From Saccharibacter sp. 17.LH.SD (GTDB taxonomy: Bacteria > Pseudomonadota > Alphaproteobacteria > Acetobacterales > Acetobacteraceae), in NCBI RefSeq assembly GCF_009834805.1, contig NZ_WVHO01000012.1, forward strand, positions 1 to 64,000: 64,000 bases of DNA. Reading direction: 5' to 3'. Shown piece by piece: positions 41,337 through 63,875 of this stretch. The notes under the pieces were generated by a model. The model worked only from the letters and a program-made list of their open reading frames with translations, made no database searches and was not told the origin of the DNA. Each line of letters begins with the position of its first letter. Position 1 is the first letter of the stretch. Both the position numbers and the translations under genes were made by a program.

Positions 41337-41480
41337 TCTGACTCCTGCCATATAGATTTGGAAATAGGCATGGGCTCTTCAGTGGTTAAGAGCCTTTTAT
41401 CGTTTGTAAAAAGAATACCTTATTTTTGTTGCAAACGGAAAGGGGATTCCCTTCGCACTCTTTTGAGGACATATCACACT

Positions 41481-42083
41481 ATGACAACTTCTTTGTCGTT
41501 CTTTTTGAATTCGCCTCATTTATCAACGCACACACGAACGTTGTTGCTCGAGCGTATAAATCAAGAAAAAGCCCTGCCTCAATATCTTTCACCCAAAGCT
41601 TTTTCTCTATTGAAAATAGTATGTGATGACATTCTTCCTCAGGAGCTCCTTATAGGAAATACTCATCTCAATCTTGCTGTTATGATTGATCACACTTTTG
41701 CAAGTTCACGTGATGGATGGCGGTTTGCCGAATTGCCTTCTGATCTTGAGGCGTATGAAGCTGGTCTAATGACATTAGAAGCCCATGCCTATGATCTTTT
41801 TAAAACGCGTTATGAAAAACTAACATCCGATCAACGAGGCTCTCTTTTAGACCATGCTTATGATGGAACATTTTCACCTTTTGTTTCTCAAGCGCCATTA
41901 ACACCCGTTCAAATGTCTCTATGGATACGCGACGTTCGAGCTGACATCCTCTCCTGTTTTTTATCTCATCCAATACCCCAAACTCTTCTTGGGTTGTCTG
42001 CAAATTTAACCGGTGGGGATGATCATTTGGAAGGATTTCCATCTATCTCTGCCAATGAAAGAAAGCCATTCGAAGCAGAGTGA
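41481..42083 (+). CDS. Gluconate 2-dehydrogenase subunit 3-like protein
   Basis: About 200 residues. The pattern YLSPKAFSLLKIVCDDILPQE and the central SSRDGWRFAELPSDLEAYEAGLMTLEAHAYDLF resemble the gluconate 2-dehydrogenase subunit 3 family, the small partner of membrane GMC dehydrogenases. Family members often carry a Tat signal; I see none here, so export would depend on the partner or occur otherwise. I chose ATG 41481; the frame is open much further upstream, into the divergent sucB region. The GMC gene follows after 352 bp. Confidence 0.65.
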   Translation: MTTSLSFFLNSPHLSTHTRTLLLERINQEKALPQYLSPKAFSLLKIVCDDILPQELLIGNTHLNLAVMIDHTFASSRDGWRFAELPSDLEAYEAGLMTLEAHAYDLFKTRYEKLTSDQRGSLLDHAYDGTFSPFVSQAPLTPVQMSLWIRDVRADILSCFLSHPIPQTLLGLSANLTGGDDHLEGFPSISANERKPFEAE

Positions 42084-42118
42084 TCTTGTTTCTATGTTGA
42101 AAAAAAGAGTGTCGGTGT

Positions 42119-42439
42119 GTGATGACGAAAGAAATATCATCTCTCTTAATAAAAAGAAAAGATAAAGAGATTGAGGATGTAAAGGTTGCCTGTGAGTACT
42201 GTGGTACCCGGCTTTCTAAAAATGTACCCCAGTTTACTCACACTGTGTACAACTTTAAGAGCAAGGCATATCAACGGTTGCAGGATCTTATCCAGAATTG
42301 TCCACAGACCCCCTGTGTACAATCCCCTTTTTATAAGGGGGTACAGTACCGTCCACGAGATTCAGTACGTCAACGGGTACATGGCCGTACAATCCCCATG
42401 TACCCCAGTACACTCACAAACATGGATGTCCCTTTATGA
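42119..42439 (+). CDS. Doubtful 106-codon ORF across the GTAC repeat cluster
   Basis: The frame starts near 42119 and ends by overlapping the GMC start codon as ATGA, which could mean translational coupling. It contains one CxxC (VACEYCGTRL) and otherwise no recognisable domain. The GTAC repeats fall in different codon phases, so they are DNA-level, not protein-level, repeats. No Shine-Dalgarno is evident. I regard coding as unlikely but not excluded. Confidence 0.22.
   Translation: MMTKEISSLLIKRKDKEIEDVKVACEYCGTRLSKNVPQFTHTVYNFKSKAYQRLQDLIQNCPQTPCVQSPFYKGVQYRPRDSVRQRVHGRTIPMYPSTLTNMDVPL
42195..42412. repeat. Cluster of 12 GTAC-centred repeats
   Basis: Twelve GTAC tetramers occur in about 220 bp, where less than one is expected by chance. 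Larger repeats include ATGTACCCCAGT-N2-ACTCACA twice (42222 and 42398), GTACAATCCCC twice, TGTGTACAA twice, and the palindrome GGTACAGTACC. Two sites one mismatch from the DnaA box TTATCCACA also lie here (TTATCCAGA 42289, TTGTCCACA 42299). The region separates the two dehydrogenase genes. Role unknown: operator array, replication-type repeats or a foreign fragment. Confidence 0.7.
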
Positions 42440-43983
42440 GCCCTGAAATGCAGCATTTTTCATGTCATGATGAGGTTGATACCGTTGTGATCGGTACCGG
42501 GGCAGGTGGAGCTCCTTTAACGGCCGAATTGGCGCGTTACGGCCGTCGTGTTGTGGCGTTGGAAGCAGGTCCAGTTTTTGATGCTAAAAATTATACACCA
42601 GATGAAATAGGAGCAGGCGCCCTTTACTGGTCGCATGAACGTTTGTCTGGTGGCGAAAACCCACAAGCATTTGGTGGGAATAATAGTGGAACTGGCCTTG
42701 GAGGATCTCTTCTTCATTATGGAGCCTTTGTTCCTCGGATGGACCCCAGGGATTTCCACTTAAAAACGGAGACAGGCCAAGGAGAAGATTGGCCTTTCGA
42801 CTATAAAGCACTTCTTCCCTATATCGAACGTGTTGAAGAGTTTATTGGTGTAAGCGGACCTAATCCATATCCATGGGATGAAAAGCGTCGCTATGCTTAT
42901 CCCCCTCCTGCGCGCAATAGTGCAGCGCAGAAAATGCGAGAAGCCTGCGATCATTTAGGATTACGCTCTTCTGACGGTCCAGTCGCTCTGATTACGCGTG
43001 GCCGTGACCAGCCTTATTACGGTCAGCGTGATGCTTGCGTTAATTGTGGGGCGTGCCATCAAGGATGCCGCAATAGTGCAAAGTCTGGCGCTGATAATAC
43101 GTGGTTACCGGCTGCGAGGGCCCATGGAGCGGAGTTGCGTACTGGTTGCATGGTGACGGGTTTTGAGCGTGACACACAGGGTCGTATTTCAGCCGTGCTT
43201 TATGTGAAGCAAGGACGAGAAGAAAGACAAAAATGTCGCTCAGTTGTCATTTCAGCCGGTGCCGTGGAGACGGCACGGTTACTCCTTCATACCGGACTTT
43301 CAAACAGTTCTGGGCAGGTAGGTCGGAATTATATGACGCATATATCGACCCAGGTATGGGGTGTTTTTGATGAGGAAACATATCCTAATAAAGGGTACCC
43401 ATCTTTAACGATTACGGAAGACATGGTGCGTCCTAAGGATGCCGATTTTGCTGGCGGTTATTTGCTTCAATCGCTTGGGATGATGCCAATCACATGGTCT
43501 GTTGGCTTGGCACGGGCCGATCGTCGCCGGGGGGATGCCCTTAGTCGCGCATTGCGGCATTATAATAAAAGTGCTGGGATTGGCATGCATGGGGAAACGT
43601 TACCACGTGATGAAAATCGGGTGACATTATCTGATGAGCGGGATGATTTTGGTCTGCCCAAGCCTCGAATTGATTATACATATGGTCCTAATGAGAATGC
43701 GATGGATCGCCACGCAACGCGTTTAATGACACGATTATGGGAATCCGTTGGAGCGCAGGATATCCGTGTTTTTAGCCGAGCCGCTCATATGATTGGTACA
43801 TGTCGGATGGGACACGATACTGGAACGTCCGTTGTGAATCCTCAGGGCCGTAGTTTTGACATTGAAAATCTTTGGATTAGCGATCATTCAACTTTTCCAA
43901 GTGCGGGGGCTGCCAATCCTGCTTTAACCATTATGGCGCTATCGTTGCGGACTGCGGAGGCAATGATGAAGGCTGGCTATTAA
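42436..43983 (+). CDS. GMC-family FAD oxidoreductase (gluconate/sugar dehydrogenase large subunit type)
   Basis: 515 residues. The FAD-binding loop is VVIGTGAGGAP at about 18-28, followed by ALEAGP. FGGNNSGTGLGGSLLHYGAF is the second GMC block. The C-terminus has the catalytic region SDHSTFPSAGAANPALTIMA with the His/Asn pair. A cysteine cluster CVNCGACHQGC at about 201-211 resembles the iron-sulfur motif of membrane sugar dehydrogenase alpha subunits, so electron transfer to a cytochrome or quinone is plausible. A subunit 3-like gene lies upstream, but no cytochrome c subunit follows. The substrate is unknown. Confidence 0.85.
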   Translation: MSPEMQHFSCHDEVDTVVIGTGAGGAPLTAELARYGRRVVALEAGPVFDAKNYTPDEIGAGALYWSHERLSGGENPQAFGGNNSGTGLGGSLLHYGAFVPRMDPRDFHLKTETGQGEDWPFDYKALLPYIERVEEFIGVSGPNPYPWDEKRRYAYPPPARNSAAQKMREACDHLGLRSSDGPVALITRGRDQPYYGQRDACVNCGACHQGCRNSAKSGADNTWLPAARAHGAELRTGCMVTGFERDTQGRISAVLYVKQGREERQKCRSVVISAGAVETARLLLHTGLSNSSGQVGRNYMTHISTQVWGVFDEETYPNKGYPSLTITEDMVRPKDADFAGGYLLQSLGMMPITWSVGLARADRRRGDALSRALRHYNKSAGIGMHGETLPRDENRVTLSDERDDFGLPKPRIDYTYGPNENAMDRHATRLMTRLWESVGAQDIRVFSRAAHMIGTCRMGHDTGTSVVNPQGRSFDIENLWISDHSTFPSAGAANPALTIMALSLRTAEAMMKAGY

Positions 43984-44265: not shown

Positions 44266-45561
44266 ATGCATCTCGCCGAATTAAAGAAAAAATCTCCCGC
44301 TGATTTGTTGACCTTTGCTGAAGAATTGGAGATTGAGAATGCGTCGTCTCTGCGCAAGCAGGACATCATGTTCGCTATTCTCAAAACTCTCGCAGAACGC
44401 GATCAGGTCGTTTATGGCGAAGGTACACTTGAGATCCTCCCTGATGGATTTGGCTTTCTCCGGAGTCCAGAAGCCAATTTTCTTCCTGGACCCGACGATA
44501 TTTACATATCTCCGACTCAAGTGCGTCGTTTCGGTTTGCGCGCTGGGGATACGGTAGAGGGTGAAATCCGCGCCCCTCGTGATGGTGAGCGCTACTTCTC
44601 TCTTCTAAAAGTTAATACCATCAATTTTGAAGCGCCTGAGACTGTCCGTTCTCGTATCAATTTTGATAATCTGACGCCTCTTTTTCCAGAACGGCGTTTA
44701 CGTATGGAAATTGAGCAAAAAGAAGAAGAGTCAAAGAGCGCTAAAGGGCGTGGACGTAAAGACCAGCGTGATTATACATCACGCGTGATTGACCTTGTTT
44801 CTCCGATTGGACTGGGACAGCGTGCGTTGATTGTAGCACCGCCGCGCACGGGTAAAACCGTCATGTTGCAGAGCATTGCAGCGTCTATTACGGCCAATCA
44901 TCCAGATGTTTTTCTAATTGTTCTTCTTATTGATGAACGACCTGAAGAAGTGACGGATATGGCGCGTTCTGTGCGTGGGGAGGTTGTCTCATCAACCTTT
45001 GATGAGCCCGCAACGCGTCACGTTCAGGTGACGGAAATGGTTTTGGAAAAAGCCAAGCGCCTTGTTGAACATAAGCGTGATGTCGTTATTTTGTTGGACT
45101 CCATTACACGTCTTGCGCGAGCTTATAATACGGTCGTTCCTTCATCAGGGAAAGTCTTGACGGGTGGTGTGGATGCTAATGCATTACAACGTCCGAAACG
45201 TTTCTTTGGTGCTGCGCGTAACGTTGAAGAGGGTGGATCACTCACCATTATCGCAACGGCGTTGATTGATACCGGATCGCGTATGGATGAAGTGATCTTT
45301 GAAGAGTTCAAGGGGACTGGTAACTCTGAGCTCATTCTTGATCGTAAGCTTTCCGATAAACGCACCTTCCCCGCGATTGATATTACGAAATCGGGAACTC
45401 GTAAGGAAGAGCTACTCGTGGATCGGGCTGCCCTTTCCAAAATGTGGGTTCTACGGCGCATCCTTGCCCCGATGGGAACAATGGATGCAATGGACTTCTT
45501 GCTCGACAAACTTCGTTACAGCAAATCCAATCAGGATTTCTTTGACGCGATGAATAACTAA
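44266..45561 (+). CDS. rho: Transcription termination factor Rho
   Basis: Hexameric RNA helicase that ends transcription. 431 residues. The N-terminal helical domain is [23 protein letters not shown], followed by the RNA-binding cold-shock-like fold with [22 protein letters not shown]. The ATPase core has the P-loop [11 protein letters not shown], the Walker [17 protein letters not shown], and the Q/R-loop region [27 protein letters not shown] chose ATG 44266, giving the standard N-terminus. It heads the rho-mnmE-mnmG-rsmG-parA-parB block typical of origin-near alphaproteobacterial DNA. The 282-bp gap before it shows no gene. Confidence 0.97.
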
Positions 45562-46134: not shown

Positions 46135-47430
46135 ATGAGTGCCACTACCCTATCACAAACGCCTACAATTTTTGCCCTGGCTACTGGTTTAGGGCGTGCT
46201 GCTATTGCCGTGATCCGTGCAAGTGGGTCTGAAAGTGCGCGGATACTGGAAGCTTTATGTGGCGCCCTCCCTCCTGCGCGTCATGCAAGTTTTCGTCCTT
46301 TGCGGTACCGCGGAGATGTACTTGATCATGCACTGATTTTATGGCTCCCGGGACCGCGTTCTTACACGGGGGAGGATAGTTTTGAACTTCATCTCCATGC
46401 GGGCCATGCGATTATAGAATCCGTTTCAGATGCTCTTACAGCATTAGGTGCGCGCCCAGCGGAACCAGGTGAATTTACACGACGTGCGGTGCAGGCCGGG
46501 CGACTTGATCTGTTACAAGCTGAAGCTATTGCTGATTTGGTGGATGCTGAAACACAAGCGCAACGTAAGCAGGCTTTGCAGCAGGCGGATGGTGCTCTTA
46601 GCCAACTTTACAATGGGTGGAGCCAGCGGTTGCGCCATGTTCTGGCACAGCAAGAAGCTCTTATTGATTTTCCAGATGAAGAGCTTCCACCAGAGGTTGA
46701 AAGAGCTTTGCTGGAAGAATGTGCTTCTTTGCGTCGTGAGCTGAGCGAGCATTTATCAGATGAGCGCGGTGAGATAACGCGCGAAGGGCTGAAAATCGTC
46801 ATTGCGGGGGCCCCAAATGTTGGGAAATCAAGCCTCCTTAATAGGCTTTGCGGTTTTGATGCGGCAATTGTAACGCATAAAGCGGGTACAACGCGGGATG
46901 CTATTCGTGTAGACTGGATTCTGGATGGCATTAAGCTTCGCTTGATTGATACAGCCGGCTTGCGAGAGACGGATGATGATATTGAAGCTGAGGGTATTAA
47001 ACGTGCCTTACAGCATGTGAAGAACGCGGATATGGTTCTGCATCTTGTCGGGCCAGAAGAGACATCGTCTCCTGTCATACCGGATGCAATAAAAATACGC
47101 ACGAAAACGGATTTAGCTCCCGCACGAGAGGGTGAAATAGGCATTCATACGCAGGATGAAACAGGGATTTCTGCCTTGCGTGATTATTTGAAGGCTCATA
47201 TCAAGCAGTTGATGTCTGAACGCTCAGCCCCGCCTTTAACGCGTGCACGTCACCGTGCTGGTTTGGAGGAAGCGCGCCGCCATTTGGAGCAAGCAGAGCA
47301 TGCTGTGTGGCCAGAGGTCCGCGGGGAAGAATTGCGTTTGGCTATGCAGGCCTTGGGGCGCTTAACAGGACATGTAGACGTTGAAGCGTTGCTGGATACT
47401 ATTTTTGGACAGTTTTGCATTGGGAAATAA
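46135..47430 (+). CDS. mnmE: tRNA modification GTPase MnmE
   Basis: With MnmG it makes the 5-(carboxymethyl)aminomethyl group at wobble uridine 34 of tRNAs. 431 residues: the folate-binding N-terminal domain ([21 protein letters not shown]), helical domain, and inserted G domain with G1 [13 protein letters not shown]2 AGTTRD and G3 DTAGLRE. The C-terminal FCIGK motif carries the essential Cys. I chose ATG 46135, the usual N-terminus. It is followed by mnmG after 8 bases. Confidence 0.96.
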
Positions 47431-47438
47431 GAGAAACC

Positions 47439-49298
47439 ATGACCACAAGCTATGATGTGATCGTGATTGGTGGCGGTCATGCAGGGTGTGAAGCTGCTGC
47501 GGCTTCTGCACGATTTGGTGCAGAGACGCTTCTATTAACCCAAAAACCTGAAACGATTGGCGCCATGTCCTGTAATCCAGCCATTGGTGGGATTGGTAAA
47601 GGCCATCTTGTCAGGGAGATTGATGCTTTTGATGGGTTGATGGGAAAAGCGGCTGATCGTGCAGGAATTCACTTCAAACTGTTGAATCGTTCCAAAGGGC
47701 CTGCCGTACATGGGCCACGAGCACAAGCTGATCGCTCACTCTATAAAAAAGCGATACAGGAGCTGTTGAATGAAACGCCTCATTTGACGATTGAAGCTGG
47801 GTCAGTCGGAGATTTGATCGTTCAAGAAGGACATGTTCGAGGCGTTGTGTGCGAAGATGGTCGTCAGTTCAAAGCGGGAGCTGTGGTCATCACGAGTGGT
47901 ACATTCTTGCGCGGTGTCATTCATACAGGGCATGTGAAAGAGTTAGCTGGACGGATTGGTGAGGCTCCAGCCACCCAACTTGGAGAACGTCTTGAAGCGC
48001 TGGGCCTTCGTATGGGGCGTCTCAAAACAGGGACTCCTCCCCGTCTTGCTCGAGACAGCATTGATTGGGACAATTTACCGGCTGATTATGGTGATGATGA
48101 CCCTGAAGCATTTAGTAGTTTGACGACGCATCTACCGGCTGAACAGCTCGTTTGTCGGGTGACTCATACAACGGCTAAAACGCACCAAATCATTCGTGAT
48201 AACCTCCATCTCTCTGCCATGTATGGAGGAGAGATTGTGGGACGTGGGCCGCGATATTGCCCTTCTATTGAGGACAAAATTATTCGCTTTGCCGAACGCG
48301 ATAGCCACCAAGTGTTCTTAGAACCAGAAGCTCTGCCCGGAAATCCTGGGGGTGATCTCGTTTATCCGAATGGTATTAGTACGTCGTTACCGGCATCTGT
48401 ACAGGAACAAATGATTGCGACCATGCCGGGTCTTGAAAAAGCACGTATCGTCACGCCAGGCTATGCCGTTGAATATGATTATGTTGATCCCCGAGAATTA
48501 CGTCCTTCTTTGGAATTAAGGCGCCTGCCCGGTTTGTATCTTGCTGGGCAAATTAATGGGACAACAGGGTATGAGGAAGCAGGCGCTCAAGGCCTTTTGG
48601 CTGGATTGAATGCGGCTCGTTCCGTTGGTGGGAAAGAGCCTCTCACGCTAGGAAGACATGAATCTTACCTGGGTGTATTAGTTGATGATCTAACACTTCA
48701 CGGCATTAGTGAACCGTATCGTATGTTCACATCGCGTGCTGAATACAGACTGCTTTTGAGAGCGGATAATGCTGACCTCCGTTTAACCCCTAAAGGGATT
48801 GAGGCTGGGTGTGTCGGTGTTGAGCGGCAGACATCCTTTAATGAGATGGTCGCGCAGATCGATCAGGCGATGGCAAAAGCGAATGAGAAGATCTATTTGC
48901 CCCAGCATCTTCAAGATCAGGGCATTGATATTTCTCAGGACGGACGGAGACGGAGCCTCATTGATATTTTGGCGACACAAGTGCGTGAGGAGCAGATTTC
49001 TGCGTTAGCACCATGGTTTGCTGAATTACCGTCTCGTATTCGCCGGCATGTACAGACAGAAGCACGTTATGGTGGGTATTTACGTCGGCAAGAGAGAGAT
49101 ATTCAGCAGCTTCAAAATGAAACAAACCTTCTCCTTCCAGATGACCTCGATTATAGCGCGGTTGGAGGGTTAAGCCGTGAAATGCAGGAGCGTCTTTCCG
49201 AAGCGCGACCTCCAAACTTTGCTGCTGCACAGCGTGTGCGCGGCGTAACGCCTGCGGCACTTATCGCTTTATTGGCTCACATTAGGAGCCGGTCATGA
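47439..49298 (+). CDS. mnmG: tRNA uridine-5-carboxymethylaminomethyl modification enzyme MnmG
   Basis: The FAD partner of MnmE in wobble-uridine modification. 619 residues with the FAD loop [12 protein letters not shown] at the N-terminus, [56 protein letters not shown] and the C-terminal [17 protein letters not shown] chose ATG 47439; the frame is open 24 bases upstream into mnmE. It overlaps rsmG by four bases (ATGA). Confidence 0.97.
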
Positions 49299-49873
49299 TG
49301 TCTGTTTCACGTGAAACACAAGAAAAGCTTGAAGCGTTTTCCTCGCTTTTAGAGCAATGGAACCGTCGTATAAATCTGGTAAGCCCGCGTGATATTCCTC
49401 ATTTATGGTCGCGCCATATTGGGGATAGTTTGCAGCTTACTTCCTTCATTCCAGAAAAAGCACATATTGCAGATCTTGGCTCTGGAGGGGGGTTCCCCGG
49501 TTTAATCTTGGCGATTGCGACGGGGAATCCGGTGACTTTGATTGAGTCAGACCACCGTAAATGTGCTTTTTTACGGGAAGCAAGCCGAGTTTGCGGTGCA
49601 CAGACGACGGTTATTTCAAAGCGCATAGAAGATGTTGAGATAGAACCAGCAGACATTGTGACGGCACGTGCTCTTGCGCCATTAAAAATATTATTGGGTT
49701 GGGCAGATCCGTTGCTTAAGGAAGATGGTTTTTGTCTTTTTTTAAAGGGAAGAAAAGCGCCCGATGAGTTGACCGAAGCCCGTCGTGACTGGCACATGAC
49801 GTATAACTCTCTGCCGAGCCGTACAAATGAGGACGGCGTTCTTCTCAGGATCAGTGATTTCAGACGTGTCTAA
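49295..49873 (+). CDS. rsmG: 16S rRNA (guanine527-N7)-methyltransferase
   Basis: Methylates G527 of 16S rRNA using S-adenosylmethionine. 192 residues with the SAM-binding motif [41 protein letters not shown]-type second motif, and [19 protein letters not shown]. It is shorter than the E. coli enzyme by about 15 residues, mostly at the N-terminus. A perfect parS site is embedded in codons 4-9. parA begins two bases after its stop. Confidence 0.95.
49303..49318. promoter_or_regulatory. parS centromere site (ParB binding)
   Basis: TGTTTCACGTGAAACA, an exact 16-bp palindromic match to the chromosomal parS consensus. It lies inside the rsmG reading frame, 0.56 kb upstream of parA. It marks origin-proximal DNA and is where ParB loads. 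Confidence 0.95.
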
Positions 49874-49874
49874 A

Positions 49875-50657
49875 ATGACCTCAAAGAATACTCGTATTAT
49901 TGCTGTCGCCAACCAGAAGGGAGGTGTAGGTAAAACGACAACGAGCCTTAACCTTGCGGCAGCCTTAGCGCAGTCTCAGCGTGTTCTTTTGGTGGATCTC
50001 GACCCGCAAGGAAATGCGTCAACAGGGCTTGGGATTGCGTATGGAGAGCGTAGTCGGGGAAGTTATAGTGCTCTTATGGGCGATGATGATCCCTCTTCTC
50101 TTCCACAGAAAAGTTCGATTGCTCAACTGGATGTGATTCCAGCTAATGGGGATTTGGCAGGCGCCGAGTTAGAGATGATTGACAGTGAACGGCGTGAATA
50201 TCGCCTTCATGACACATTGAAGTATGTTAAAGATAGTTACGATATCATTCTAATTGACTGTCCGCCGAGCCTTGGGCTTTTGACGTTGAATGCGTTGGTA
50301 TTGGCTCAAAGTGTTTTGGTGCCGTTGCAATGTGAATTTTTTGCGTTGGAAGGAATTAGCCAATTAGTGCGCACTATTGAGCGTATTCGTCGTGCGTTTA
50401 ATGCAGATCTTCATCTCGAGGGGATCGTGCTGACGATGTATGATCGCCGCAATAATTTTTCGGCTCTTGTGGCTGAGGATGCTCGGAATTTTTTTGGGGA
50501 AAAGATGTTTGAGACGCTTATTCCAAGAAATATTCGCATCCCAGAAGCGCAGAGCCACGGCCAATCCGTTTTAGAATACGCACGGCGTTCCACGGGGGCA
50601 GAAGCTTATATGGCGTTAGCTGACGAACTCCTCAAACGATTGGAAAGAAAGGGCTGA
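49875..50657 (+). CDS. parA: Chromosome partitioning ATPase ParA
   Basis: Deviant-Walker ATPase that moves ParB-parS complexes to segregate origins. 260 residues with the signature loop VANQKGGVGKTTTSLNLAAAL, LLVDLDPQGNASTGLG, and DIILIDCPPSLGLLTLNAL. The C-terminal IPEAQSHGQSVLEYARRSTGAEAY is also typical of chromosomal ParA. I chose ATG 49875, directly after the rsmG stop; a longer frame runs back inside rsmG. parB follows after 4 bases. Confidence 0.97.
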   Translation: MTSKNTRIIAVANQKGGVGKTTTSLNLAAALAQSQRVLLVDLDPQGNASTGLGIAYGERSRGSYSALMGDDDPSSLPQKSSIAQLDVIPANGDLAGAELEMIDSERREYRLHDTLKYVKDSYDIILIDCPPSLGLLTLNALVLAQSVLVPLQCEFFALEGISQLVRTIERIRRAFNADLHLEGIVLTMYDRRNNFSALVAEDARNFFGEKMFETLIPRNIRIPEAQSHGQSVLEYARRSTGAEAYMALADELLKRLERKG

Positions 50658-50661
50658 CCCA

Positions 50662-51549
50662 ATGGCTAAGAAAGGACCTCCCCGACGGTTGGGGCGTGGA
50701 TTAGCTGCTCTTTTAGGAGACCAAGTTTCAGAGTTAGCGCGCGCGGGCACGACACCGAAGGAAGAAGGGATATCTATGCACCAACCTGGCGTGTTGGCTA
50801 TTGATCTTTTGGCACCAAGCCCCTTTCAACCCCGTGTTTTTATGGACCCCGATCATTTAAGTGAGTTGGCGGATTCCATTCGATCTCGCGGTGTTATTCA
50901 GCCGATTCTGGTGCGTCCAGATCCTGAAAAAGAAGGGCGGTATCAAATTATTGCCGGTGAACGGCGTTGGCGTGCGTCGCAACTCGCAGGCTTGCATGAA
51001 GTGCCTGTCCACATTCGTGTTTTGGATGACACGGATGCTATGGCTGCGGCTATGGTGGAGAATCTTCAGCGGTCAGATTTAAATCCCGTTGAAGAAGCGA
51101 TGGGACTTCAAAGGCTTTTGCAAGATTACAGCCTAACGCAAGAAGAGCTTGCGGGGGCGGTTGGAAAATCACGCTCTCATATTACAAATACAGTTCGGTT
51201 GCTGAATCTTCCAGAAACTGTGCTGCAGCATTTACGTGACGGTCTGCTGAGTGCGGGGCATGCACGTGCATTGCTGGGACATCCCTCCCCTATTACGGCC
51301 ATGAAACTTGTGCTTGATAAAGGATTAAATGTTCGGCAAACCGAAGCCCTTGTTGCGCAAGCTAATCGAAAAGAAGGATCGCCTGTTAGAAAGGCCGCTC
51401 AGCTTCCTGAGATTGCGAAGTTGGAAGAAGACTTATCGACCCGTTTGGGATTAAAGGCGCAGATTCGGTTTAATGGGAAAGGTGGGACTCTAAAAATCAA
51501 TTATGGCTCATTGGAACAGTTTGAAGAATTGATGAAATTGTTTCGGTAA
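50662..51549 (+). CDS. parB: Chromosome partitioning protein ParB
   Basis: CTP-dependent DNA clamp that loads at parS. 295 residues: the ParA-interacting N-terminus RRLGRGLAALLGD, the nuclease-like N domain with LRP-type box QPILVRPD and IIAGERRWRASQLAG (CTP-binding motif), the helix-turn-helix QEELAGAVGKSRSHITNTVRLL, and a C-terminal dimerisation domain RIRFNGKGG-like segment near 270. It ends the operon and is followed by tRNA-Lys. Confidence 0.96.
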   Translation: MAKKGPPRRLGRGLAALLGDQVSELARAGTTPKEEGISMHQPGVLAIDLLAPSPFQPRVFMDPDHLSELADSIRSRGVIQPILVRPDPEKEGRYQIIAGERRWRASQLAGLHEVPVHIRVLDDTDAMAAAMVENLQRSDLNPVEEAMGLQRLLQDYSLTQEELAGAVGKSRSHITNTVRLLNLPETVLQHLRDGLLSAGHARALLGHPSPITAMKLVLDKGLNVRQTEALVAQANRKEGSPVRKAAQLPEIAKLEEDLSTRLGLKAQIRFNGKGGTLKINYGSLEQFEELMKLFR

Positions 51550-60358: not shown

Positions 60359-60362
60359 TTTA

Positions 60363-60762
60363 GGTTCTGTTAGAATTTAAGACAATCAACTGAAGCAGCG
60401 ACGTAGAGCACGGATATGAAAGATGAAGCTGTTTTTTCATAGCGTGTTGCCGCTGCCCTTCATTTCTTGAGCCTTGCCCAGAGATTTTCCACCAACTGTC
60501 TATTTCTGTATGCATATTGTGGGCAGCCAGCTATTAAGTCCCAGTTTAGAAGGAATGGCACGCCATTTCGTGCCATTCTGATGACGCCAGAAAATGGCTG
60601 AAACAGTTCATCTCAGATAATGTGGAGCTTTCTTACCTTTGGGGCGCTATTCTTCAATTAAGTGATTGAGGCGGAGTCACATCCTGTCAGAAATGACGCT
60701 GTCCGTCATACTCATCCCTTCCATATAGGAAGAAACGTTATTCCTTAAATTCTAACAGACCC
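60363..60762 (-). mobile_element. Degenerate IS5-family (IS427-like) remnant
   Basis: A 400-bp element bounded by 19-bp inverted repeats GGTTCTGTTAGAATTTAAG (60363) and GGGTCTGTTAGAATTTAAG (minus, ending 60762), one mismatch, with TA on each outer side. The minus strand encodes pieces of a transposase: a start with MTDSVISDRM, then a middle WRHQNGTKWRAIPSKLG, and a C-terminus VENLWARLKK-stop-RAAATRYEKTASSFIS. Stops, frame changes and less than half the usual length show it is dead. Confidence 0.85.
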
Positions 60763-61208
60763 TAAGGGCGCACAATGATCATAATCACAATAACCATCAT
60801 TAAAACGGTGGGGATTTCATTCACCAAACGGTAGAAACGTTCGTCATGCGTGTTTCTACCGCTAGCAAACCCCTTCCACCAACGCGCGCAGGCACCGTGA
60901 AACGCAAACATTCCCACAACACATAACAACTTCACCCACCACCAAGCAGCATGCCAGTCAATTACACCCGGAAGGGACGCTATAATAGCCCCTGTAAGAA
61001 GCGTCACACACATGGCCGGCGTCATGATCTGTCGCAATAAACGTTTTTCCATTAATGAAAAACGCTCACTCTCCGAAGAACCTTTTGACACTTGTGTGTG
61101 GTAAACAAAAAGACGAGGCAGATAAAACAATCCCGCCATCCAAGAAATAAATGCCATGACATGAAGGGCAAGAATCCAACTTAAATGGCCCATTAAAAAC
61201 AATGTCAC
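60762..61208 (-). CDS. hemJ: Protoporphyrinogen IX oxidase, HemJ type
   Basis: Membrane enzyme that oxidises protoporphyrinogen IX in heme synthesis. 148 residues with four hydrophobic segments and family motifs LHVMAFISWMAGLFYLPRLFVYH (conserved His), KLLCVVGMFAFHG, and the C-terminal YRLVNEIPTVLMMVIV. Its TAG stop is at the edge of the IS remnant, which supplied or duplicated the TA. It is in the same leftward unit as hemE, two steps earlier in the pathway. Confidence 0.9.
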   Translation of the reverse strand: MTLFLMGHLSWILALHVMAFISWMAGLFYLPRLFVYHTQVSKGSSESERFSLMEKRLLRQIMTPAMCVTLLTGAIIASLPGVIDWHAAWWWVKLLCVVGMFAFHGACARWWKGFASGRNTHDERFYRLVNEIPTVLMMVIVIMIIVRP

Positions 61209-61928: not shown

Positions 61929-62986
61929 TACACGTTCCTTATTGTTTCAACCAATGTTGCCACATGCTCGGGTGGTGTTTGCTTCATCACCCCATGCCCT
62001 AGATTGAAGATATGAGCGCGCCCTTTCAAGGTATCACGTATCCGCTTCGCCTCCTGCACCAAACGCTCCCCGCCATTGAGCAACGTCATAGGGTCCAAAT
62101 TTCCTTGAAGCGTGATATGCTCAGGCACCATTTTGGCAATCTTAGGCAGGTCAGCAACCGTATCAAGTGCTAGAGTATTTATACCCGTCTTCGTCGCATA
62201 TTCCTCAACCATCACCCCACCTAAGCGTGGAAAGCCGATAATAGGCGTTTCAGGATGGTGCTTCCGAATATGCTCAACAATGATGCGCGTTGGCTCAATA
62301 ACGTAACGGCGAAACTCCTCAGGCGGAAGCAAGCCTCCCCAAGAATCAAAGAGCATTACCGCTTCCGCTCCAGCTTCTATCTGCCCACACAACATTTTTG
62401 CTGTATTACGTGTCAAAAGATCCATTAACGCATCATAAAGTGCTGGATTTTTCTGCATGAGCTGGCGCGTATGCATAAAATCACGCGATCCACCGCCCTC
62501 AATCATGTAGCATGATACGGTGAAGGGGCTTCCTGCAAAGCCTAATAATGTTGTTTCTTTAGGAAGTTCTTTTGTTAGTCGACGCAAAGCTTCCCGAACT
62601 GGAGCCGTTGCCTCCATCAGGCGATCTTCATCCAACATCTGAAGATCATGCTCTGAACGAATAGGAGACAGAATAGGCCCTCGCCCCTCTTCAAAACGCA
62701 GAGACTGGCCCATAGCCCATGGAAGAATCAAAATATCAGAAAAAAGAATGGCGCCATCCATGTGATAGCGACGAATAGGCTGAAGCGTCAGTTCAACAGC
62801 AATATCCGGGGTCATGCACCGTGTTAAAAAATCAGCCTTTTCCCGCTGAGCGCGAAACTCAGGAAGGTAACGTCCGGCTTGTCGCATAAGCCAGACAGGA
62901 GGTGGCCACACAGCCTCTCCTCGGAGAGCGCGAAGAAGGGGCTTAGTTTCAGCCATTGCTGAGGAAATCTTTTTTTCGTGAGACAT
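61928..62986 (-). CDS. hemE: Uroporphyrinogen decarboxylase
   Basis: Removes four carboxyl groups from uroporphyrinogen III to give coproporphyrinogen III. About 352 residues with PPVWLMRQAGRYLPEFRAQREKADFL (substrate-binding signature), FSDILILPWAMGQ, GFAGSPFTVSCYMIEGGGS, LFDSWGGLLPPEEFR and NLGHGVMKQTPPEHV. ATG 62986 gives MSHEKKISSAMAET; a later ATG (MAETKPLL) is also possible and no clear Shine-Dalgarno decides. It starts beside the oriC candidate, its usual place in alphaproteobacteria. Confidence 0.95.
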   Translation of the reverse strand: MSHEKKISSAMAETKPLLRALRGEAVWPPPVWLMRQAGRYLPEFRAQREKADFLTRCMTPDIAVELTLQPIRRYHMDGAILFSDILILPWAMGQSLRFEEGRGPILSPIRSEHDLQMLDEDRLMEATAPVREALRRLTKELPKETTLLGFAGSPFTVSCYMIEGGGSRDFMHTRQLMQKNPALYDALMDLLTRNTAKMLCGQIEAGAEAVMLFDSWGGLLPPEEFRRYVIEPTRIIVEHIRKHHPETPIIGFPRLGGVMVEEYATKTGINTLALDTVADLPKIAKMVPEHITLQGNLDPMTLLNGGERLVQEAKRIRDTLKGRAHIFNLGHGVMKQTPPEHVATLVETIRNV

Positions 62987-63260
62987 GATACCAATTGATA
63001 AAAGAAAAGAATGAGAGATGTAAGAGAAAATTGCAGGATTTGTGATCTTCTTATTCAATAAAATTCCACATTTTACCCACAGAAAAAATCAACAAAAAAT
63101 CCTTGTTTATCAAAGAGTGTAGGAGGTTATCCAAATTTTTCCACAATAGACTTGTATGTATATGTCATTCAAAAACGTACACATAATGGATTCTTCTAGA
63201 GCCATTTTTCTCAGGAATCATTCGCTATCATTACGCGTTAATTTGTCTAAACTTCCCCTC
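62987..63260. other. Candidate chromosomal replication origin (oriC)
   Basis: An AT-rich gap between divergent hemE and maf. Three sites differ from the DnaA box TTATCCACA by one base: TTACCCACA (63073), TTATCCAAA (63127) and TTTTCCACA (63137), all in the same orientation within 73 bp. In several alphaproteobacteria oriC lies next to hemE. The parABS locus is 12-14 kb away. No perfect box is present and the local strand skew does not clearly switch here, so this remains a candidate. Confidence 0.5.
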
Positions 63261-63875
63261 ATGATGAACTATTTTCCAACCCGCTTTCCCTTAATCCTTG
63301 CAAGCAGTTCTACAATCCGACAGCGCCTTCTGACCGAGGCGGGAGTAAAAGCCATCGCTATACCCGCTCATATTGATGAAGACGCTTTACGCAACAATGC
63401 TCAAAATAACTCTATTGCTGAAATGACGTATGCTTTAGCGAATGCAAAAGCGGATGCGATAAGCAAACAGAGCTCAGAGAACGACATTATTATCGCTGCA
63501 GATCAAATTCTCGAATGTAATGGCACTATTTTCGCAAAACCATCTTCAATAGAAGACGCGCGGCGACATCTACAATATCTCCGCGGACGAACACATACGC
63601 TCTATACCGCTCTTGTTTTATGGAAAAATAAAAAATGTGTATGGCAGCATCTCAGTACACCGCAGCTCACCATGAGAAATTTCTCTGACGCATTTTTAGA
63701 ACAGTATTTACGTTACGATAGCCATGAAATTATCCACTGTGTCGGGGCTTATCGAATGGAAGGTCCGGGAATCCATCTTTTCAAGCATATTGAGGGAGAA
63801 ATGGATGCTGTCTTAGGGCTACCAAGACTTCCCCTTCTTGAAGCACTTCGTTGTCACGCAGGGCTGATGACTTAA
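63261..63875 (+). CDS. Maf-like nucleoside triphosphate pyrophosphatase
   Basis: Hydrolyses modified or canonical nucleotides (dTTP/UTP or m7GTP in characterised members). 204 residues with LILASSSTIRQRLLTEAGV (start of fold and phosphate site), DEDALRN, ALANAKADAI, IIIAADQILECNGTIFAKP (the DQ general base) and ARRHLQYLRGRTHTLYTALVL. The R-S-P-R/SSSTIRQ variant suggests the second alphaproteobacterial Maf type. I chose ATG 63261; longer starts would run into the AT-rich origin region. Confidence 0.9.
   Translation: MMNYFPTRFPLILASSSTIRQRLLTEAGVKAIAIPAHIDEDALRNNAQNNSIAEMTYALANAKADAISKQSSENDIIIAADQILECNGTIFAKPSSIEDARRHLQYLRGRTHTLYTALVLWKNKKCVWQHLSTPQLTMRNFSDAFLEQYLRYDSHEIIHCVGAYRMEGPGIHLFKHIEGEMDAVLGLPRLPLLEALRCHAGLMT

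Follow-up and report, generated by a model that had tools for sequence, protein, structure and literature searches.

Introduction

In the chromosomal origin oriC of Escherichia coli, the tetranucleotide GATC is over-represented and SeqA favours its half-methylated form, and sequestration is apparently exclusive to a few Dam-bearing proteobacteria (PMC4285127, excerpt). In Caulobacter, the only experimentally located case as of 2007, and in Rickettsia, the gene hemE is the neighbour of the origin (PMC1914354, excerpt). The enzyme M.RsaI of the alphaproteobacterium Rhodobacter blasticus 28/5 methylates GTAC, with m4C as the product (PMC6256690). For acetic acid bacteria, no description of a GTAC-rich origin or of GTAC methylation was found among the matches listed in a literature search; in the excerpt of PMC4686929, the word 'methylome' appears in the reference list only. 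An oriC of Acetobacter cerevisiae has been predicted at the skew maximum near dnaA (PMC13209655, excerpt), which conflicts with the hemE location reported here.

The 64-kb stretch of DNA analysed here (the window) contains a dense array of GTAC sites. Judged from its sequence and that of its relatives, this array is very probably the core of oriC, the origin of chromosome replication, in the acetic-acid-bacteria branch of the Acetobacteraceae.

The GTAC cluster and its chromosomal setting

By motif count, 12 GTAC start within 42196-42408. The preliminary description, which had reported 12 GTAC in about 220 bp, is borne out: the top 215-bp interval of the 255,803-bp contig is this cluster, with 12 GTAC where 0.33 are expected (Poisson tail 2e-15), and the seven next-best intervals of the same length hold three each. 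Among the best intervals of all tetranucleotides in the contig, the cluster has the smallest Poisson tail. Over the whole window, on the other hand, 102 GTAC were counted against 112 ± 12 in dinucleotide-preserving shuffles, so that GTAC is overall neither rare nor common there; in the contig its density is 1.5 per kb, which is not common. The longer repeated units and two near-DnaA boxes are also present in the sequence where they had been described. The units ATGTACCCCAGT, GTACAATCCCC and TGTGTACAA each occur twice (the last at 42244-42252 and 42314-42322), and further units are GGTACAGTACC, TTATCCAGA at 42288-42296 and TTGTCCACA at 42298-42306.

The initial account had left room for the stretch being a decayed known gene. 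The 106-aa frame 42119-42439 across the array, the only frame over the stretch scanned, has no Pfam match, and a protein-coding source of the repeats was rejected on this ground. An RNA gene was rejected as well, with no Rfam match up to E 1 in 41400-43400. The genes and sites around the array are as follows.

41478-42083, + strand, gluconate-2-dehydrogenase subunit 3-like protein, local neighbour only
42436-43983, + strand, GMC-family oxidoreductase, local neighbour only
44266-45561, + strand, rho (family scan from 44272)
46135-47430, + strand, mnmE (family scan from 46129)
47439-49298, + strand, mnmG (gidA)
49303-49318, + strand, perfect parS, TGTTTCACGTGAAACA, near the start of rsmG (49295-49873)
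49827-51549, + strand, parA (frame 49827-50657) and parB (50662-51549), ParA- and ParB-type families

Two dehydrogenase genes had been named as the neighbours. More precisely, one of them encodes a GMC-family oxidoreductase and the other the gluconate-2-dehydrogenase-subunit-3-like protein; we infer that they are probably two subunits of one enzyme. The change of strand composition, whose left edge had been noticed at the array, is real: the cumulative GC skew, profiled over the 255,803-bp contig, has its minimum at 41,988, at a distance of about 0.2 kb from the core. The right arm beside the core encodes Rho, MnmE, MnmG, RsmG, ParA and ParB, and parS is about 7 kb from the core. The DnaA protein of the host has the usual domains.

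Anatomy of the core

The elements of the core and its flank, in window coordinates, are listed below.

42120-42179, AT-rich flank, probable DNA-unwinding element (72-75% A+T in 40-bp steps)
42172-42427, - strand, predicted oriC core, holding all 12 GTAC (match to the 39-sequence model R1, 178 bits)
42189-42199, - strand, GTACTCACAGG, by alignment the counterpart of the relatives' outer DnaA-type box (.CATCCACAGG)
42203-42228, - strand, GGTAC[AG]TT..GAA..GGGTACC block with two GTAC, the pattern of the collection scan
42244-42252, - strand, TTGTACACA, DnaA-box-like, central GTAC conserved in 107/107
42288-42296, + strand, TTATCCAGA, DnaA-box-like (the relatives' TCnGGATAA block)
42298-42306, + strand, TTGTCCACA, DnaA-box-like
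42314-42322, - strand, TTGTACACA, second copy, GTAC conserved in 107/107
42350-42357, + strand, CGTCCACG, DnaA-box-like
42365-42411, upstream GTAC block, including TCCCCA at 42393-42398

The A+T content of the flank contrasts only modestly with the 47-62% of the 40-bp intervals in the core; in the consensus of the relatives, the flank is T-rich on the - strand. Exact TTGTACACA is found four times in the 2.1-Mb genome, and two of these copies are in the core. In Mycobacterium and Streptomyces, the sequence TTGTCCACA serves as the high-affinity DnaA box (PMC4285127, excerpt). Across the aligned cores (107 rows, omitting L030, L083 and L095, three of the 110 loci, which are cut near the element), the GTAC of the upstream block are conserved in 103 (42365), 104 (42387), 107 (42400) and 97 (42408) of the 107 sequences. 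In total, eight of the 12 window GTAC occupy alignment columns that 97 or more of the 107 sequences share, but two of these eight carry no weight, since those of the 42203-42228 block are part of the selecting pattern, and any locus found with it must have them. Two window GTAC lie inside DnaA-box-like sites; the others belong to conserved blocks outside the boxes or to positions specific to the lineage.

With regard to the boxes themselves, the pattern TTGTNCACA, chosen after the alignment was made, occurs in 106 of the 107 cores and reaches there a 693-fold higher density than in the remaining parts of the loci. The E. coli-type consensus TTATNCACA is present in only two of them. As a separate observation, GAGTC-like sites (GANTC, CcrM-type) recur at the outer core edge of the relatives, which is the upstream end of the alignment, and GAGT and AGTC are likewise enriched at unconserved alignment columns.

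Conservation among the Acetobacteraceae

By BLAST, the core is single-copy in its own genome, and copies of the array were found in 16 of the 100 genomes searched, its own counted. A pattern derived from the most conserved 26 bases was then scanned through 84,980 species genomes. It yielded 109 stretches, and the 80 that were listed have a single match apiece. The fetched loci, 109 in number, all belong to the Acetobacteraceae and cover 17 named genera. This breadth of conservation leaves the breakpoint scar proposed at first unsupported as such, though the origin has been relocated here.

Together with the window, 110 loci were oriented. In 97 of them hemE lies directly downstream of the core (65 by ORF clustering and 32 by tblastn, which was used where an antisense frame or the locus end hid hemE). 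The remaining 13, namely the window, Bombella, Saccharibacter and relatives, have the dehydrogenase small subunit downstream. On the other side, the gene maf is found in 87 of the 93 hemE-type loci with 900 bp of upstream sequence and in none of the 13 others. Skew was compared in 83 loci, among them the window, that have 1 kb to either side of the core (27 of the 110 have less than 1 kb on one side and were left out). The downstream skew exceeds the upstream skew in 78 of the 83; a strict minus-to-plus switch occurs in 57 of the 83, and 26 show no such sign change. The model R1, built from 39 diverse cores and used with a match limit of 1e-5, matches 115 of 397 family genomes with one match per genome, and three of 289 class genomes, all three from the family. 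Four matches of about 1e-4 in genomes without the methyltransferase treated below (G045, G122, G124 and G126) are too weak for this limit and were not counted.

In general, the array combines a skew minimum, a cluster of DnaA-box-like sites, and parS and parAB nearby, and it has hemE, the mark of hemE-type origins, at its side in most of the oriented loci, although not in the window itself.

Relocation of the origin

In the lineage of the window, the origin is displaced from its ancestral place before hemE to the site between the two dehydrogenase genes. The ancestral place is still recognizable in the window.

61934-62950, - strand, hemE (protein-match range), neighbour of oriC in most relatives
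63055-63156, - strand, decayed second copy of the oriC core, between hemE and maf (R1, 20.6 bits, E 5e-6)
63156-63875, + strand, maf (longest frame; Maf family from residue 45)

The gene hemE lies about 20 kb to the right of the core, and the relic at 63055-63156 has no GTAC at all and retains remnants of DnaA-box-like sites. In a second species of the genus, a weaker relic (L279 6205-6302, 13 bits, E 0.0005) stands upstream of hemE, and the stretches from G034 and G159, two further genomes, gave none. The GC-skew minimum tracks the new site; hemE and the relic sit in a stretch of falling skew, and both are inverted in the species of the window relative to the sister species. Just before the inverted hemE block, where the skew dips, there is a 22-bp inverted repeat (60360-60765, 95% complementary, 362 nt apart), which is probably an insertion-sequence remnant.

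GTAC enrichment and a candidate methyltransferase

The 107 cores carry between 8 and 14 GTAC each, with a median of 12; outside the cores, the loci have a median of 0.39 per 300 bp. When the conserved columns are masked, GTAC is still the most enriched tetranucleotide, with 196 observed against 15.3 expected (12.8-fold), a figure to be taken as an indication and not as a test, because related sequences inflate it and misalignment may contribute. The persistence of the excess under masking suggests a role for GTAC as such, over and above any particular long motif, like that of GATC in the E. coli origin.

By searching the genome with two DNA-methyltransferase families, N6_N4_Mtase and MethyltransfD12, three methyltransferase genes were found. 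One is CcrM by its profiles (NCBIfam CcrM profile 615 bits, below the curated cut-off of 830); it has a RAMA domain, adjoins an RNase HII gene and was set aside. A Dam-family gene (107 bits, cut-off 115; L165 1441-2238, contig C9), whose surroundings we take to be phage-derived, was also set aside. The candidate is the third, a solitary N6/N4 methyltransferase of 271 residues encoded between mltA and an Smr-domain gene (L164 1411-2226, contig C9). It carries the motif TSPPYN, which is usual in N4-cytosine methyltransferases. No restriction enzyme was noticed in its own 3.7-kb locus, and none is annotated, in an incomplete gene table, as adjoining its two Paracoccus plasmid relatives. Relatives of the enzyme stand beside mltA in 24 of the 30 fetched loci.

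Of the 397 family genomes, 170 encode the candidate enzyme, among them all 115 that bear the array; the Fisher value for this co-occurrence ignores common descent and is not to be read literally. Two sets of genomes without a strong array were compared upstream of hemE. The enzyme-positive set comprised 28 genomes, namely 26 of the 27 that R1 does not match at 1e-5 (the remaining one, G043, lacked a hemE match) and the weak-match genomes G142 and G152; the enzyme-negative set comprised 52 fetched of the 64 in a 120-genome sample, the other 12 being omitted as hemE was missing or near a contig edge, or by choice. Only two of the 28 enzyme-positive genomes reach at least four GTAC per 250 bp. 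Thus, the enzyme alone is insufficient for the array, and the idea that the array is a general consequence of the enzyme was rejected. The GTAC maxima of the 28 are somewhat higher than those of the 52 (Mann-Whitney p 3e-5, uncorrected for descent), but the same genome sets also differ in CATG and ACGT, two of the seven palindromes used as controls (p 0.01-0.02). Next to the hemE-proximal DnaA box, GTAC, mostly as GTACCCC, was found in 16 of 17 enzyme-positive versus 10 of 39 enzyme-negative genomes, after 24 of the 80 loci (11 positive and 13 negative) with no box of at least 8 of 10 had been dropped; without this demand on box quality, the counts are 16 of 28 versus 12 of 52. Many genomes that have no GTAC at this box show a TGCnTCCCC-like sequence instead.

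In a tree of hemE from 60 genomes, seven changes were counted for one of the two traits and five for the other. Of three independent pairs on well supported branches, 1.8 went the same way, 0.0 the opposite way and 1.2 showed no change (sign test p 0.5), so the tree-based test is not significant. The most telling case is that of three small genomes, G108, G031 and G157, which have neither enzyme nor array. The hemE tree places their clade among the acetic acid bacteria, together with Commensalibacter, Neokomagataea and Gluconobacter, and the joint loss of enzyme and array counts as one event on this single-gene tree. The grouping is possibly false, owing to the single gene used and to the odd residue make-up in the rows of G157, G031 and Commensalibacter. 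Upstream of hemE, G108 has 14 copies of TTATCCACA, the consensus DnaA box, and no GTAC.

Proposed mechanism and alternative readings

Based on this anatomy, DnaA would bind an array of mostly non-consensus boxes, comprising the two TTGTACACA, TTATCCAGA, TTGTCCACA and the outer CACAG-type box, and would open the AT-rich flank at about 42120-42180. The GTAC sites may form an added layer over the DnaA boxes. In the reading judged most likely for this layer, which takes up the early suggestion of a methylation-site cluster and is held only tentatively, the mltA-linked solitary methyltransferase would methylate the array of about 12 GTAC, two of them within DnaA boxes, and half-methylation after replication would alter origin activity, as DnaA or another protein would bind new, half-methylated origins with an affinity other than that for old ones. 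The unusual density of GTAC, together with the conserved enzyme, hints at control of the origin by methylation as in E. coli. This reading is testable, since methylation inside TTGTACACA would directly alter a conserved base of the box.

Two further readings of the same oriC are each somewhat less likely. In the first, which is doubtful in our estimation, the non-box GTAC blocks (GGGGTACAT, GGGTACCCC and GTACCGAGTACC) bind some other origin-binding protein and there is no methylation. The conserved context around GTAC, for example GGGGTACATTTT..GAAA..GGGTACC and GGGGTACATG.GGA, fits a protein site equally well, and full sites of the alphaproteobacterial regulator CtrA (TTAA-N7-TTAA) are found in none of the 107 cores, which leaves room for another regulator. 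However, GTAC is also enriched at unconserved positions where the shared context is loose, as it would not be with one long motif, and the co-occurrence of the methyltransferase would then be a coincidence or a matter of common descent.

The second, also rather unlikely, takes the GTAC blocks for weak DnaA sites (TACCCCA/TCCCCA-like) and the GTAC excess for a by-product of a preferred weak box. In its favour, TTGTACACA is one position off TTATNCACA, the DnaA-box consensus, and TCCCCA occurs in 82 of the 107 cores. TT(G/C)TCCACA boxes known from Actinomycetes (PMC4285127, excerpt) and the weak DnaA-box classes in Caulobacter (PMC4468827, excerpt) may be counted on the same side. The blocks GTACCGAGTACC and GGGTACCCC are unlike DnaA boxes, however, and the 12.8-fold excess at unconserved columns is left unexplained.

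Readings without a chromosomal origin fare far worse. The iteron-like replication repeats suggested at the outset survive in so far as these are replication repeats of a chromosomal oriC. It is extremely improbable that they are plasmid or phage iterons integrated in the chromosome: the repeat-like look and the DnaA boxes would suit iterons, but a search of 72,556 plasmid and 50,697 phage records gave no match to the array, the core is conserved together with its chromosomal neighbours, and no Rep family occurs among its six annotated neighbours. An operator array controlling the dehydrogenase genes, another early suggestion, can hardly be upheld, for although the core stands beside the small-subunit gene in the window and in 12 other loci, the hemE flank of the 97 loci makes the element independent of the dehydrogenase, all 115 R1-positive genomes have a single match, and the core adjoins the GC-skew minimum.

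Implications and comparison with known systems

The origin defined here by sequence may aid annotation and vector building in acetic acid bacteria (Acetobacter, Gluconobacter, Komagataeibacter, Bombella and others), and the window documents an origin move of about 20 kb with a decayed copy left behind. If the methylation reading holds, initiation control via a short methylated palindrome would have arisen more than once with different palindromes, and the present system would be an origin-methylation system distinct from both GATC/Dam/SeqA and CcrM/GANTC. G108, G031 and G157 would then be a natural case of loss, in which, for G108, consensus TTATCCACA boxes dominate. The natural series of gains and losses is offered for testing GTAC methylation.

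Among described origins, the locus resembles the Caulobacter crescentus Cori and other hemE-linked origins in its ancestral hemE side, in boxes that deviate from TTATCCACA and in its AT-rich region (PMC1914354, PMC4285127 and PMC4468827, all excerpts). It differs from Cori in the missing CtrA sites and in the presence of the GTAC array, and from Caulobacter-type origins in its other neighbour, which is maf and not COG1806; moreover, the lineage of the window has left hemE. By description, the candidate enzyme may be likened to M.RsaI, but M.RsaI is part of a restriction system. As with GATC, Dam and SeqA in E. coli, a palindromic tetranucleotide is over-represented in the origin and a solitary methyltransferase is encoded in the genome; unlike in E. 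coli, the palindrome is GTAC, and the methyltransferase, a candidate only, belongs to a different family, and no reader protein is known. In this comparison, the element is of a known kind, an origin, with a lineage-specific architecture.
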